A program made the translations under genes and the position numbers. A stretch of DNA of 31,714 nt from a virus. Below the pieces are notes generated by a model. That model did no database searches. It was not told the DNA's origin and saw only the letters and a program-made list of their open reading frames with translations. Position 1 is the first letter of the stretch; each line of letters opens with the position of its first letter. Below are positions 3,153 to 23,148 of this stretch, in pieces. Location of the stretch: positions 1-31,714 of the IMG/VR virus record IMGVR_UViG_3300021961_000377, one strand, 5' to 3'.

Positions 3153-4223
3153 ATGAAGGCGGCCATAATTACAGATACACACTTTGGTGTAAGAAACGAC
3201 AGTCAAACCTTTCTCAATTTTTTTGATAAGTTTTATAGTAATGTCTTCTTTCCGTATCTTATTGATAATAATATCACTACTATATTTCATCTTGGCGATA
3301 TTGTGGATAGAAGGAAGTTCATTAACTATGTAACTCTACGAGAGTTCAAGAGAATTTTCGTTCAGCCATGCATTGATAATAACATCAAACTCAATGTTAT
3401 TGTCGGTAATCATGATATTCCATATCGTAATACCAACGAGGTCAATGCACTAAATGAACTGTTCGGTGATGAGTATGATCTGATTGATATTTTTTCTGAT
3501 GTAAAAGATGTAGAGTTCGGTGGTTGTGGTATTACCATGTTACCATGGATTAATAATGAAAATTATGCCGAATCCATGCAGTTCATTAAAAATACAAAAT
3601 CACAGGTTCTCTTCGGTCATCTTGAAATTCGTGGTTTTGAAATGTATCGTGGTATGAAAAATCCACATGGTATGGAAGCAGCTCTATTTGATAAATTTGA
3701 TCTTGTCTGTTCTGGGCATTTTCATCACAAGTCACAGGGCGGCAATATCCACTATCTAGGCAATCCATATGAGATGACCTGGAATGATTATAATGATCAG
3801 CGTGGATTTCATATTTTTGATTCTGAGAAAAGAGAGTTGACTTTTATTCAAAATCCGTATAGAATATTCCATAAGATTTGGTATGATGATACCGAAATGA
3901 AACTTGAGGAATTTATTGCCAGTTTTGATTTTGACTCTTATAAAGATACTTATGTAAAAGTAATTGTTCAGAATAAAACAAATCCATATTGGTTCGATAT
4001 TGTGATGGATCATTTGTATAAGGCAAATCCAGCAAATATCTCTATTGTTGATGATCATAAAAATCTTGATCAGCAATCGGAGGAGGAGATTATTTCTGAA
4101 GCCGAGGATACACTGACAACCCTACACAATTTTGTAAATCAGATGGATACCAATGTCGACAAGGCACTGCTAAATCAACTGTTTGCTAATTTATATACAG
4201 AAGCGCAGAGCATGGAGCTTTAA
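3153..4223 (+). CDS. 47: Recombination endonuclease subunit gp47 (Mre11-like)
   Basis: 356 residues (T4 gp47: 339). With gp46 it forms the Mre11-Rad50-type complex that resects DNA ends and degrades host DNA. Calcineurin-like phosphoesterase motifs are all present: D8-x-H10 (TDTHFG), GDIVDR at 48-53, GNHD at 85-88, GHLEIRG in the middle, and SGHFHHKS. These residues bind two catalytic metal ions. The gene starts 4 nt after gp55 and runs directly into gp46, whose start lies 1 nt past its stop. The C-terminal ~100 residues are helical and probably contact gp46. Confidence 0.93.
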   Translation: MKAAIITDTHFGVRNDSQTFLNFFDKFYSNVFFPYLIDNNITTIFHLGDIVDRRKFINYVTLREFKRIFVQPCIDNNIKLNVIVGNHDIPYRNTNEVNALNELFGDEYDLIDIFSDVKDVEFGGCGITMLPWINNENYAESMQFIKNTKSQVLFGHLEIRGFEMYRGMKNPHGMEAALFDKFDLVCSGHFHHKSQGGNIHYLGNPYEMTWNDYNDQRGFHIFDSEKRELTFIQNPYRIFHKIWYDDTEMKLEEFIASFDFDSYKDTYVKVIVQNKTNPYWFDIVMDHLYKANPANISIVDDHKNLDQQSEEEIISEAEDTLTTLHNFVNQMDTNVDKALLNQLFANLYTEAQSMEL

Positions 4224-4224
4224 T

Positions 4225-5940
4225 TTGATATATTTTCATAATGTTCGGTGGCAAAACTTTTTGTCTACCGGAAATGTTTGGACAGATGTTCAACTTGATC
4301 GAAGTCCAAATACCTTGGTTATAGGTGAAAATGGTGCGGGCAAATCCACAGTGCTAGATGCTCTGTGTTTTTCGCTGTTTGGTAAACCGTTTCGTAAAAT
4401 CAATAAACCTCAGCTTGTCAATTCTGTAAATCAAAAAGACACTCTTGTAGAGGTCGAGTTTTCTATTGGTAGTTCACGGTATAAAATTATCCGTGGTATG
4501 AAACCTAATGTATTTGAAATCTATAAAGACGATCATCTGATTAATCAGACAGCATCTGTTCGCGATTACCAACAACAGCTTGAACAGAATATCCTCAAGC
4601 TTAATTTTAATTCGTTCACGCAGATCGTAATTCTTGGTTCGTCAACCTTCGTTCCATTTATGCAGTTACCAGCACAGCAGCGCCGAGAAATCATTGAGGA
4701 TCTACTTGATATTAAGATCTTTACTGCAATGAATGTCTTGCTTAAGGAACGGTTACAGAATAATAAAGAGAATATTAAAGAGATCAAGAATAAAGCTGAT
4801 GTCGAGCAGGAAAAGCTTGATGTTCATCAGAATTATGTTGACGAGATTCGGTCAAAGAACAAAGAGAGAATAGAAAATCTTAAAGCTGAAATCTTAAAGT
4901 GTGAGAGTACCATTGGTGTTCTTACTCTAGATATTGATACAAATAATAAAAAGGTTGCTGAACTTCAGGGGAGCGTAAGTGACGAGGATTCGGTTCACAA
5001 GAAACTCAATCAAATTTTGAATATTGAATCCAAGCTTGAGGATAAGACTAAGAAACATAAGAGAGAAATTAAATTTTATCAAGATAATGATCACTGTCCT
5101 ACATGTGATCAGGATATTGATGACGCCATTAAATCAAGCAAGATTCACGAGAGTCAGACAAAGGTGGATCAGATTACAGACGCTCTCAATAAATTACAAA
5201 AAGAGTTGGAAAAAGAAAATCAGCGGCTTCTAGATATCTCAGAAATCAATAATGAAATCAAAGAATATCTTGAAAAGATTTCTGATGGTAATAACCAAAT
5301 TTCGTCTCTAAATAAGTATATCGCTCAACTTCGTACCAATATTGATTCTGAGGTTTCTGATACCGGTGACCTTAAGGAAGAAAATAAGAAGATAAATGAG
5401 CTGAAAAAGTTATTGAAAAAATTAGAGGAAAAAAGGGAGGAATATATCAACGAGAAAGAATTGCTTGATGTGGCTGCTGAACTCTTGAAGGATAAGGGAA
5501 TCAAGACTCAAATTGTTCGGCAGTATGTTCCGGTGATGAATAAGCTCGTAAATAAATATCTGGCGGCAATGGAGTTCTTCGTAAGTTTTGAACTTGACGA
5601 AAACTTTGAAGAGATTATTAAATCCAGGCATAGAGACTCATTTAGTTATGCATCATTCAGTGAAGGTGAAAAAATGAGAATTGACCTATCTCTACTATTG
5701 ACCTGGCGTTCCATTGCAAAGATGAAAAACTCTACCAATACCAATCTATTGATTCTTGATGAAGTCTTTGATGCTTCATTAGATTCTAATGGTTGTGATG
5801 AGTTCCTAAAACTGCTCGATGAACTAGGTAAAGATACTAATGTGTTCGTGATCTCCCACAAGGGGGATGTGCTACAAGATAAGTTCCGTTCTGTAATTAA
5901 ATTTGAAAAACATAAAAATTTCTCGAGGATGGCAGCATGA
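4225..5940 (+). CDS. 46: Recombination endonuclease subunit gp46 (Rad50-like ATPase)
   Basis: 571 residues from a TTG start (T4 gp46: 560). ABC-type SMC-like ATPase partner of gp47. Walker A GENGAGKST at about 34-42, a long coiled coil interrupted by a zinc hook CPTC near 291-294, the signature FSEGEK near 478-482 and Walker B LLILDE near 508-513 followed by a D-loop (FDASLD). I chose TTG at 4225 because GGAG at 4214-4217 lies 7 nt upstream and the resulting start (MIYFHNVRWQNFLSTG) aligns with the T4 N-terminus; an upstream TTG at 4183 would overlap gp47 and adds unrelated residues. Confidence 0.93.
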   Translation: MIYFHNVRWQNFLSTGNVWTDVQLDRSPNTLVIGENGAGKSTVLDALCFSLFGKPFRKINKPQLVNSVNQKDTLVEVEFSIGSSRYKIIRGMKPNVFEIYKDDHLINQTASVRDYQQQLEQNILKLNFNSFTQIVILGSSTFVPFMQLPAQQRREIIEDLLDIKIFTAMNVLLKERLQNNKENIKEIKNKADVEQEKLDVHQNYVDEIRSKNKERIENLKAEILKCESTIGVLTLDIDTNNKKVAELQGSVSDEDSVHKKLNQILNIESKLEDKTKKHKREIKFYQDNDHCPTCDQDIDDAIKSSKIHESQTKVDQITDALNKLQKELEKENQRLLDISEINNEIKEYLEKISDGNNQISSLNKYIAQLRTNIDSEVSDTGDLKEENKKINELKKLLKKLEEKREEYINEKELLDVAAELLKDKGIKTQIVRQYVPVMNKLVNKYLAAMEFFVSFELDENFEEIIKSRHRDSFSYASFSEGEKMRIDLSLLLTWRSIAKMKNSTNTNLLILDEVFDASLDSNGCDEFLKLLDELGKDTNVFVISHKGDVLQDKFRSVIKFEKHKNFSRMAA

Positions 5941-10703: not shown

Positions 10704-11981
10704 ATGTCTAAGATTAAAGTCGGCATTATTGGTGTCGGAAACTGCGCTCAATCTCTCGTAGAAGGCGTACAATATTATATTACTAATCCATCAGATACGG
10801 TTGGACTCATGTATCCAGATATTGGTGGATACACAGTCAACGATATTCAATTTGTAGTTGGTTTTGACGTTGACCGCCGCAAAGTGAATCGTCCACTTAA
10901 AGACGCTCTAAGAGCTAAACCAAACTGCGCTATGTATCATGTTGACGAGATCGATGATACTTGTGTCGCGACAAAAGCTATGGTATATTCTGGTCCAGAG
11001 CTTGATGGTGTTGCAGCACACATGCTTGATTATCCAGAAGATATTTCATTTAGAACTGGCGCTGAATCAGCTAAGTCATTTGATGATATCGTTGAGATCG
11101 TAAAGCAGAGTGGAGTTGATGTTCTCATCAATTATTTGCCCGTTGGTTCTGAAAAAGCCACTAAGTTTTACGTGGATGTAGCACTTGCTGCTAAAGTGCA
11201 TTTTGTAAACTGTATTCCTACTCTCATTGATACTAATACGACCAAGATTATTGAACAGAAGTTTATCGATAATGGTCTTACTATCGTTGGTAACGACATG
11301 CGGTCTGCATGGGGAGCATCACGTATGAGTGAAGTACTGCAGGGGGCTATGATTGATTCCGGTCTTATGGTAACTCAACATATTCAGATGAATATGGCGG
11401 CTGGTTCTACACAGGGGCAAGAAAATATTAGAACTGGACGTACTGCAAACTGCGATTTCTTGAATATGGCAAAACAAGAAAGACTTCATGACAAGCATGT
11501 CTCTAAGGAGAACGTGTTGAAAGGACAGAATGTAGTTCGCAATGAACCAACTGCTGGTATGACATTGTACGCGGGACCATCGTTAACAGTACTACAAAAG
11601 CCTGGTTCAGCTTATGTTGGATCAGATAACAAGATTGCAAACTTTGATATTGTTGCATATGGTTTTGGTGGCGCTCGATACGAGCTCACTGCTCGACTGT
11701 CTGTCCAAGACTCACCAAATTCTGGTGGTGTAGTGGTATCAGCAATTCGTTTCTGTAAAGTTGCGTCTGAGATGGGTATTGTAGGTTATCTTCGTGGCCC
11801 ATCAGCTTGGACTCAGAAAACGCCTCCTCTTCAGTTAAAGACTGAAGACGCAAAGTTTGAGTGCGACGCTCTTGCTCGACGAGAACTTACAAATCTTACT
11901 AGTATTCAGCTAAGTAAAAACTCACCAAAGGCCTCTAAGTTACAGTATACTTTTCAGGCTGGAAGCACAGACTACGAATAA
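10704..11981 (+). CDS. ino1: myo-Inositol-1-phosphate synthase
   Basis: 425 residues. NAD-dependent enzyme converting glucose 6-phosphate to inositol 3-phosphate (1L-myo-inositol 1-phosphate). Rossmann start GIIGVGNCAQSLVEG at 8-22 with GxGNCAxS; VVGFDVDRRK next; INYLPVGS and the block FVNCIPT in the middle; GDMRSAW-like segment NDMRSAWGASRMSE; the C-terminal stretch KIANFDIVAYGFGG and LSVQDSPNSGGVVV correspond to the dimerisation/catalytic domain. CAGGAGAAACAA precedes the ATG. Directly followed by a HAD phosphatase. A phage gene of this kind could serve host metabolism or supply inositol for DNA decoration; context favours the latter (inference). Confidence 0.88.
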   Translation: MSKIKVGIIGVGNCAQSLVEGVQYYITNPSDTVGLMYPDIGGYTVNDIQFVVGFDVDRRKVNRPLKDALRAKPNCAMYHVDEIDDTCVATKAMVYSGPELDGVAAHMLDYPEDISFRTGAESAKSFDDIVEIVKQSGVDVLINYLPVGSEKATKFYVDVALAAKVHFVNCIPTLIDTNTTKIIEQKFIDNGLTIVGNDMRSAWGASRMSEVLQGAMIDSGLMVTQHIQMNMAAGSTQGQENIRTGRTANCDFLNMAKQERLHDKHVSKENVLKGQNVVRNEPTAGMTLYAGPSLTVLQKPGSAYVGSDNKIANFDIVAYGFGGARYELTARLSVQDSPNSGGVVVSAIRFCKVASEMGIVGYLRGPSAWTQKTPPLQLKTEDAKFECDALARRELTNLTSIQLSKNSPKASKLQYTFQAGSTDYE

Positions 11982-22331: not shown

Positions 22332-22406
22332 TCCTCAGTAGCTCAGCGGTAGAGCAGACGGCTGTTAACCGTCCGGTCGGTGGTTCGAATCCATCCTGAG
22401 GAGCCA
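22332..22406 (+). tRNA. tRNA-Asn (anticodon GUU)
   Basis: Acceptor TCCTCAG (22332-22338) pairs with CTGAGGA (22396-22402). D arm GCTC...GAGC, anticodon stem GACGG/CCGTC with loop CTGTTAA and anticodon GTT at 22364-22366, T arm GGTGG-TTCGAAT-CCATC, discriminator G, CCA encoded at 22404-22406. All stems perfect. The phage itself is rich in AAC/AAT codons. Confidence 0.95.
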
Positions 22407-22604: not shown

Positions 22605-22680
<76 letters not shown>

Positions 22681-22702: not shown

Positions 22703-22731
22703 TTTACAAACAATGTAGGATGTGGTAGTAT
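22703..22731 (+). promoter_or_regulatory. Early promoter P6, upstream of the hammerhead
   Basis: TTTACA at 22703-22708, 17-nt spacer, TGTGG, TAGTAT at 22726-22731. Transcription would begin near 22738, so the RNA starts about 16 nt before the hammerhead ribozyme. Confidence 0.8.
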
Positions 22732-22753
22732 ATAAACATAATGATTAATCAAT

Positions 22754-22802
22754 CTGTCTCTGATGAGTCCGTAGGGACGAAACCCCGAAAGGGGTCAGAC
22801 AG
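22754..22802 (+). ncRNA. Type I hammerhead ribozyme in a 5' leader
   Basis: Stem I CTGTCT (22754-22759) pairs perfectly with AGACAG (22797-22802). Core CTGATGA at 22760-22766; stem II GTCC (22767-22770), loop GTAG, GGAC (22775-22778); core GAAA at 22779-22782; stem III CCCC (22783-22786), GAAA tetraloop, GGGG (22791-22794); then T and C, so cleavage is predicted after C22796. Every invariant core residue is present. Stems II and III are closed and stem I open, hence type I. Cleavage would cut the leader of the gene at 22844. Confidence 0.92.
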
Positions 22803-22812
22803 CAATACTGTC
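22798..22812 (+). other. Alternative hairpin sharing the ribozyme's 3' strand
   Basis: GACAG (22798-22802), loop CAATA, CTGTC (22808-22812). The GACAG strand is also the 3' half of hammerhead stem I, so this hairpin competes with the ribozyme fold, and after cleavage would sit one nucleotide from the new 5' end. Confidence 0.7.
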
Positions 22813-22843: not shown

Positions 22844-23089
22844 ATGACAAAGACTGAACGCGTTCTCACCGCACTACAGAATGGTGAGCAGCTTACTGTG
22901 AAGCAGATCCGTGCACGCTTTGGCGTTGCCAATCCGACCGCACTGATTAACCATCTTCGTCAGAACGTCGGTGTTGCTATTTATAGCAATGCTCGTACGA
23001 ATAAGGGTGGCGAGACACGGAACTTCTACCGCATCGGCACTCCTTCTCGTAAGGTTATTGCAGCAGGCTATCGCGCACTAGCTGCATAA
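22844..23089 (+). CDS. Small winged-helix-like DNA-binding protein
   Basis: 81 residues. TERVLTALQNGEQLTVKQIRARFGVANPTALINHLRQ is a helix-turn-helix: the second helix is TVKQIRARFG, the recognition helix NPTALINHLRQ; a wing follows (YSNARTNKGGETRNFYRIG). Likely a transcription regulator or DNA-binding protein. Its leader carries the hammerhead; before ATG 22844 only weak GAAAAGAAAG is seen, so translation may depend on leader structure. Followed by a strong hairpin. Confidence 0.7.
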   Translation: MTKTERVLTALQNGEQLTVKQIRARFGVANPTALINHLRQNVGVAIYSNARTNKGGETRNFYRIGTPSRKVIAAGYRALAA

Positions 23090-23093
23090 TCAA

Positions 23094-23148
23094 AATAGGG
23101 GAGCGGAAACATCATTCTCCTTATCATCAACTTTTCCGCTCCCCTATT
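23094..23148 (+). terminator. Strong 16-bp hairpin with a 23-nt loop (terminator or sRNA)
   Basis: AATAGGGGAGCGGAAA (23094-23109) is the exact reverse complement of 23133-23148. A T-run (CTTTTT at 23151-23156) follows, so it probably ends transcription of the gene at 22844. The loop holds ATCATTCTCCTTA (23111-23123), itself the exact complement of TAAGGAGAATGAT at 23156-23168 and of the GATAAGGAGA ribosome sites of early genes. Confidence 0.75.

Follow-up and report, generated by a model that had tools for sequence, protein, structure and literature searches.

The window (the whole stretch of viral DNA analysed here, 31,714 nucleotides) is a 31.7-kb virus record with T4-type replication genes, namely a gp44-like clamp loader and a gp43 polymerase (phrog_168, phrog_262), and its earlier assignment to a T4-like phage stands. 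Described phages share no more than about 47% identity with this polymerase, and cyanophages come nearest. An Hsp20 gene sits between the polymerase and the gene for an 81-aa winged-helix-like protein, which has distant relatives in Methylophilales, Pelagibacter and Stenotrophomonas phages. Elsewhere in the window, a 425-aa ORF at 10704-11981 resembles, by eye, a myo-inositol-1-phosphate synthase, an unusual cargo in a T4-like replication region. The features in and around the leader of the winged-helix gene are as follows.

22332-22406, plus strand: tRNA-Asn (GTT), the upstream part of a small tRNA region (ARAGORN; Rfam tRNA, 67.8 bits)
22605-22680, plus strand: tRNA-Thr (TGT), ending 73 nt before the ribozyme (ARAGORN; Rfam tRNA, 69.5 bits)
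22703-22731, plus strand: sigma70-like promoter TTTACA-17-TAGTAT, its second hexamer preceded by TG and its start predicted at about 22738 (consensus scan, 9/12 matches)
22754-22802, plus strand: type I hammerhead ribozyme, stem I open (letters, Rfam, fold, core pattern, pair counts in relatives)
22796-22797, plus strand: predicted self-cleavage site, with the 2',3'-cyclic phosphate on C22796 and the 5'-OH on A22797 (C17 (GUC) position in the hammerhead consensus)
22798-22812, plus strand: predicted 5'-terminal hairpin of the cleaved mRNA, GACAG-CAATA-CTGTC, overlapping the 3' strand of stem I (pairing probability; relatives)
22844-23089, plus strand: 81-aa winged-helix-like protein (phrog_4973, E 2.5e-10; weak HTH_39 match, 19 bits against a cut-off of 21.3)
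23094-23148, plus strand: inverted repeat AATAGGGGAGCGGAAA / TTTCCGCTCCCCTATT with TTTTT after it, probably terminating the winged-helix transcript (by eye; its loop is longer than those the terminator scan covers)

As the preliminary description had it, the hammerhead lies 3' of a sigma70-like promoter and shortly (47 nt) before a winged-helix-like ORF, and its placement 16 nt past the likely transcription start is reasonable. The promoter is kept in the related loci L001, L004 and L008 and is recognisable in L017; it is absent from L016, where the hammerhead comes after an ORF stop, and from L207, which differs upstream. Both of the latter front the same winged-helix gene without the window's promoter.

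Structure of the hammerhead

The type I hammerhead proposed earlier at 22754-22802 proved correct in every coordinate, with an exact core and three perfect stems. As read from the sequence, stem I pairs CTGTCT (22754-22759) with AGACAG (22797-22802) and runs into the core CTGATGA (22760-22766); stem II pairs GTCC (22767-22770) with GGAC (22775-22778) around loop II, GTAG; GAA follows at 22779-22781; and stem III pairs ACCCC (22782-22786) with GGGGT (22791-22795) around a GAAA loop, leading to the cleavage-site C, C22796. The core is surrounded by helices of 6, 4 and 5 pairs, all perfect, of which stem I is open. The type I invariants CUGANGA, GAA(A) and UH are found at 22760-22766, 22779-22782 and 22795-22796, and the cut foreseen after C22796 agrees with the hammerhead consensus position.

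The Rfam search that had been suggested gave a divided answer: RF00163 (Hammerhead_1) is the best family for 22754-22802, with E 5.5e-5 when 251 nt are searched and 1.6e-6 for the record as a whole, but its 27.6 bits do not reach the curated cut-off of 34 bits. None of 14 control genomes gave an RF00163 match. The window contains a single match to the core pattern where 100 shuffles contain none, and the minimum-energy fold of 22750-22805 is the hammerhead (-20 kcal/mol, z -2.6). With a home-made structural descriptor, 199 hammerheads were counted among the fetched loci, a number that is no frequency because these loci were partly chosen for hammerheads, against one in the same sequences reversed, which argues that the motif is specific.

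Natural fast hammerheads dock a loop of stem I on loop II. Stem I of the window is an uninterrupted 6-bp helix with neither loop nor bulge, and the ribozyme may therefore cleave slowly at cellular Mg2+; the near-invariance of loop II (GTAG) among relatives hints at a tertiary contact elsewhere. By its sequence, 22754-22802 is a real type I hammerhead for which self-cleavage is predicted, and it would cut itself in the cell co-transcriptionally.

The ribozyme family and its short form

The same hammerhead occurs in 11 of 80 viral loci encoding the winged-helix protein (L001-L008, L015-L017) and is absent from more distant homologues. A family scan using the 5' part of the ribozyme alone, CTGTCTCTGATGAGTCCN{2,8}GGACGAAA, with nothing required downstream, returned 31 contigs, to which a second pattern added L220, L223 and L224. 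Together with the window these comprise 24 distinct forms in phage contigs, 15 of which lead into a conserved pseudoknotted RNA that we call RNA X and nine into a short hairpin; no third arrangement 3' of the hammerhead was seen among them (31 contigs, the window and the three additions). The mRNA-leader placement emphasised in the preliminary description is therefore true of the window but is not the commonest context, since most distinct members head the pseudoknotted RNA. That description had the ribozyme right but gave only part of its place in the family, and in this sense its interpretation is partly supported.

The core is unchanged in all 24 distinct members. Across 13 distinct relatives, 99.5% of the hammerhead's cells are paired, and sliding the register of the pairing partner leaves only 30-40% paired. 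In stem III, 11 cells are changed on both sides, compared with 2.7 in shuffles (0/500 reach the observed value), and the variants among short forms are themselves compensated (CCCC/GGGG, CGCC/GGCG, CTCC/GGAG, CAC/GTG). Both sides of stem II have changed in L220 (GTTC/GAAC), while the only variation in stem I is a U-A pair replaced by U-G. The outcome that had been named as counting against the ribozyme, loss of the stems in relatives without covariation, is the opposite of what is seen: the stems are kept and stem III is compensated. In the short-form leaders, little varies within the ribozyme and hairpin, while upstream of them L016 and L207 can no longer be aligned. The hammerhead structure is under selection and is preserved by compensatory change. 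Among the variants, L205, L206, L212, L217 and L220 carry stem III insertions of about 30 to more than 80 nt with the core intact, and the cleavage triplet of L212 and L217 is GUA, not GUC.

The short form, to which the window belongs, ends in a feature that the preliminary description had missed. After cleavage the mRNA is predicted to carry at its 5' end the hairpin GACAG-CAATA-CTGTC (22798-22812), a competitor of stem I. The hairpin has 5 bp, a pairing probability of 0.97-0.98 in the 3' product, and a counterpart in 9/9 distinct short forms, with the general shape AG(A/G)CAG-N5-8-CTGTC; RNA X is absent from all nine, the window included. A search for 5' hairpins after phage type I hammerheads in general found them in 10/118, compared with 7.6% in shuffles, and since this is no excess the hairpin appears to be a property of this particular family. 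A related architecture may arise by another route in L009 and L010, homologues that have no hammerhead. Here the promoter TTGACT-17-TAGAAT is followed by a hairpin of 8 bp whose predicted start is about +2, so that promoter placement is expected, from the sequence, to give directly the mRNA architecture that cleavage would give the window. In L011, L012 and L014, a different structured RNA (CCGAGACGAAGTAAGGGGTGGTATCTCGGACCACACAAAGGAAAGCTCCTTACTTC) occupies the same leader slot, about 100 nt before a hammerhead-less winged-helix homologue; Rfam, searched with E up to 1, returned nothing for it.

Some winged-helix genes carry the long form. In L003, L007 and L015, a conserved extra RNA, RNA X, lies between ribozyme and gene, and the long leaders of L003 and L007 and the short leaders of L001-L006 precede winged-helix genes whose proteins are 96-98% identical. 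Comparison of L003/L007 with L083, and of L207 with L140, shows long and short leaders exchanged between winged-helix alleles, as if recombination had swapped a ribozyme cassette.

RNA X and phage tRNA arrays

RNA X is about 115-190 nt long and would be released by the predicted cut in 15/24 distinct forms. After the cut it starts AGACA-GC, followed by a helix (helix a) with RUGGU in its loop; this RUGGU forms P1 with ACCAY, located at the 3' end of the RNA, and P1 makes a pseudoknot and encloses P2 and P3. P1 shows G-C to A-U changes in four rows and U-A to G-C changes in two. Over the whole RNA, 20 cells are changed on both sides, against 7.4 in shuffles (0/500), and the covariation score of 0.265 exceeds the 0.133 of shuffles (0/500) and lies far above that of slid registers. 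Helix a was tested by arm swapping and not by columns, because it crosses P1 and because MAFFT misplaces both helix a and L209. Swapping arms between sequences weakens helix a (18/5000 permutations reach the real value) and P2 (6/5000). RNA X is structurally conserved, and would accumulate as a processed RNA.

A covariance model built from 12 rows with the variable insert trimmed recovers members outside the training set (L110, E 7.8e-9; L223, E 8.9e-7) and has no match in the window. Rfam 15, searched with RNA X of L218 at E up to 5, gave only a spurious U6atac at 3.5; a search of L220 at E up to 1 had no match inside RNA X; and Rfam gathering scores on five related loci returned tRNAs only. 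Three different members used as blastn queries against cultured phages gave no RNA X, the only similarity being a short one within the hammerhead, to Agrobacterium phage OLIVR1. Patterns for the 3' end or the core that require no hammerhead revealed no RNA X lacking the ribozyme, and each genuine match was hammerhead-led. Pattern matches in L221, L222, L226 and L227 were dismissed as protein-coding-like or otherwise due to chance, and L239 (E 0.002) was left out as unconvincing. RNA X is a single locus per record, the two entries in one record being adjacent pieces split by the model. One scan of bacterial genomes for relatives yielded a Polynucleobacter MAG contig carrying type III hammerheads and nothing else.

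The setting of RNA X is frequently, not universally, a tRNA array. Arrays of 7 to 32 predicted tRNAs are present in L100, L110/L164, L179, L209, L211, L218, L220 and L205, and L223, L224 and L210 have no tRNA within the fetched stretch. The spacing is tight: the next tRNA begins 4-6 nt past the end of the RNA X model in L110, L164, L179, L220 and L211, and a tRNA ends 2-6 nt before the ribozyme in L209, L110 and L164. Two large RNA X records (188 and 197 kb) and the record of L100 encode a T4-type capsid protein, and the only RF00163 match in each of the two large records is the one at RNA X. The ends of tRNAs are set by RNase P and host nucleases, which would not set the 5' end of a non-tRNA; for an RNA X embedded in a tRNA array, the hammerhead would do so. 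In the array of L205, at 4031-4428 on the minus strand, ARAGORN also predicts a permuted-type tmRNA (tmRNA*).

Known systems, rival readings and significance

Hammerheads have been described in phages and prophages, some of them flanking single genes or short gene blocks, with cleavage in vitro and in E. coli for some (Perreault et al., 2011; PMC3088659); a 2017 review treats their role as an open question (PMC6155905), and a 2023 paper recalls their enrichment near genes of Mu-like phages (PMC10085705). The present family shares with the type I hammerheads of RF00163 the same core, three helices, open stem I, a phage setting and a position near gene starts. It differs in that a window or genome has a single ribozyme, not several (G001 and G002 give one RF00163 match apiece), and in its invariant stem I and loop II sequence, its score below the cut-off and its constant continuation into RNA X or a short 5' hairpin. 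We rejected a prophage hammerhead array, the window having a single copy, and likewise a retrozyme or viroid-like circular RNA, which needs two hammerheads where there is one in the window and one per large RNA X genome. RAGATH-1-hammerhead (RF03152) also combines a hammerhead with an extra hairpin, though upstream, and the window scores 24.5 bits against its cut-off of 56.3; a minus-strand match to CRISPR repeat RF01328 (E 0.17) is due to chance. Other unannotated type I hammerheads, belonging to other families, occur in two cultured phages, Agrobacterium OLIVR1 (L289, MT234338, 1510-1559) and Xanthomonas RiverRider (L291, MG983743, 596-645). Some loci, among them L177, L157, L167, L174 and L188, have many hammerheads, roughly one per gene, with 10 in about 10 kb of L177. 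In 105 pattern-selected loci with 174 distinct hammerheads between them, 68% of the hammerheads are at most 100 nt before an ORF start (22% of random points) and 5% lie inside long ORFs (random 41%).

Several T4-like systems invite comparison. According to its annotation, the T4 tRNA cluster contains the non-tRNA stable RNAs rnaC and rnaD (species 1 and 2 RNA), as the arrays here contain RNA X, but that region has no hammerhead, and an identity with RNA X was rejected because the RNA X model, run on the T4 tRNA region (L225) with E up to 1, found nothing there. T4 RegB likewise creates 5'-OH and 2',3'-cyclic-phosphate ends in early-gene leaders (PMC3014915), but it is a protein nuclease that cuts at GGAG, unlike a hammerhead. 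Searches with REGB_T4 (six related records) and with T4 RNA ligase 1 (related records) found no match, and in each case the controls were equally silent. The manA and wcaG RNAs are structured leader RNAs of marine T4-like cyanophages, manA also occurring before ibpA (PMC2864571); unlike the window's leader they have no reported ribozyme, and their Rfam families have no match at curated cut-offs in the window or five related loci. We found no report in the open-access literature, the scope of our search, of a hammerhead heading a tRNA-array RNA. Phage hammerheads are already known; the fusion to a tRNA-array RNA appears to be new.

We judge it reasonably probable that the hammerhead is a self-processing module which sets the 5' end of a structured RNA and, in the window's lineage, that of the winged-helix mRNA. 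In most distinct members, the cut would free the 5' end of an RNA X encoded among tRNA genes. In the window, the promoter-proximal 59 nt would leave as a fragment with a 2',3'-cyclic phosphate, and the mRNA would then start with 5'-OH-A and form a 5-bp hairpin from nucleotide 2. As this hairpin takes up the 3' strand of stem I, it would promote product release and prevent religation, making cleavage irreversible. A 5'-OH beside a hairpin should resist 5'-end-dependent decay, and the winged-helix mRNA would probably be protected by its new end. In T4, the 5'-OH ends made by RegB need phosphorylation by PNK before RNases G and E act (PMC3014915). The 5'-OH need not protect the mRNA, however, because RNase E can also enter directly without a 5' monophosphate (PMC2948425). 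In its fullest form, which we are inclined to accept if only narrowly, this account makes the hammerhead with RNA X a new class of phage noncoding RNA whose own ribozyme excises it from tRNA transcripts; in the window, the ribozyme would have been re-used to reset the mRNA 5' end and so bring a protective hairpin to the terminus.

The doubts about this module that come from the ribozyme itself carry different weight. It could be an inactive chance look-alike, as its score below the Rfam gathering threshold and the missing docking loop of stem I might suggest; the descriptor contrast with reversed sequences, the covariation and a core conserved in 24/24 distinct members make this very improbable indeed. 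A more substantial concern is timing. In a nearest-neighbour calculation, which treats secondary structure only and has no energy terms for the core or tertiary contacts, the hammerhead fold stays at P of about 0.3 as far as 22810; from 22812 on, with the CTGTC arm transcribed, it is down to about 0.01-0.03. Either cleavage outpaces some 10 nt of elongation or the downstream arm limits cleavage, a question the model poses, and slow cleavage would lose to refolding since the fold drops once this arm is transcribed. The leader might then be a regulator and not a constitutive trimmer, cut only if the ribozyme acts before the arm (22808-22812) emerges, with slow Mg2+-dependent cleavage, a bound ribosome or protein, or polymerase speed deciding between cut and uncut leaders. 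The predicted collapse from 0.30 to 0.01 falls exactly at 22812, and similar drops are seen once the RNA X arms emerge in L003, L218, L110 and L084, and also in L016. Against this, the argument draws on a secondary-structure energy model, and the alternative hairpin that would sequester the core is weakened by the stem II change of L220 and is not conserved as such; we regard a switch of this kind as unlikely.

Two further readings concern the relationship between the long and short forms. The window's hammerhead could be a remnant left when RNA X was deleted from the leader, perhaps still cleaving and with no role of its own, and the occurrence of both forms before near-identical winged-helix genes indicates that loss or gain is recent and easy. 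Nine distinct short forms nevertheless keep a perfect core, a compensated stem III and the hairpin, although their proteins are down to 70% identical and their flanks diverge, which makes a relic improbable. Alternatively, the hammerhead with RNA X could be a riboswitch- or attenuator-like cis-regulatory leader of the downstream gene, the window's short form being constitutive. RNA X of L003, L083 and L140 does end in a T-run (CCACCGTTTTTTT, CCACATTTTTTTTT) directly before the winged-helix ribosome-binding region. In the five loci with a tRNA 4-6 nt downstream, however, no protein gene follows, and several T-runs in tRNA-followed forms are interrupted or short; we hold this reading, too, to be doubtful.

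If the hammerhead is a self-processing module, as we favour, the family offers a concrete role for a phage ribozyme, that of a dedicated 5'-end maker for a noncoding RNA in a setting where RNase P makes the ends of tRNAs, and the same role would have been carried over to an mRNA leader in the window's lineage. Long and short leaders before near-identical genes amount to a natural experiment that sets the ribozyme alone beside the ribozyme with RNA X. In the cases tested, curated Rfam cut-offs miss the whole ribozyme family, and following it exposes an undescribed, structurally conserved RNA in the tRNA arrays of T4-like phages.
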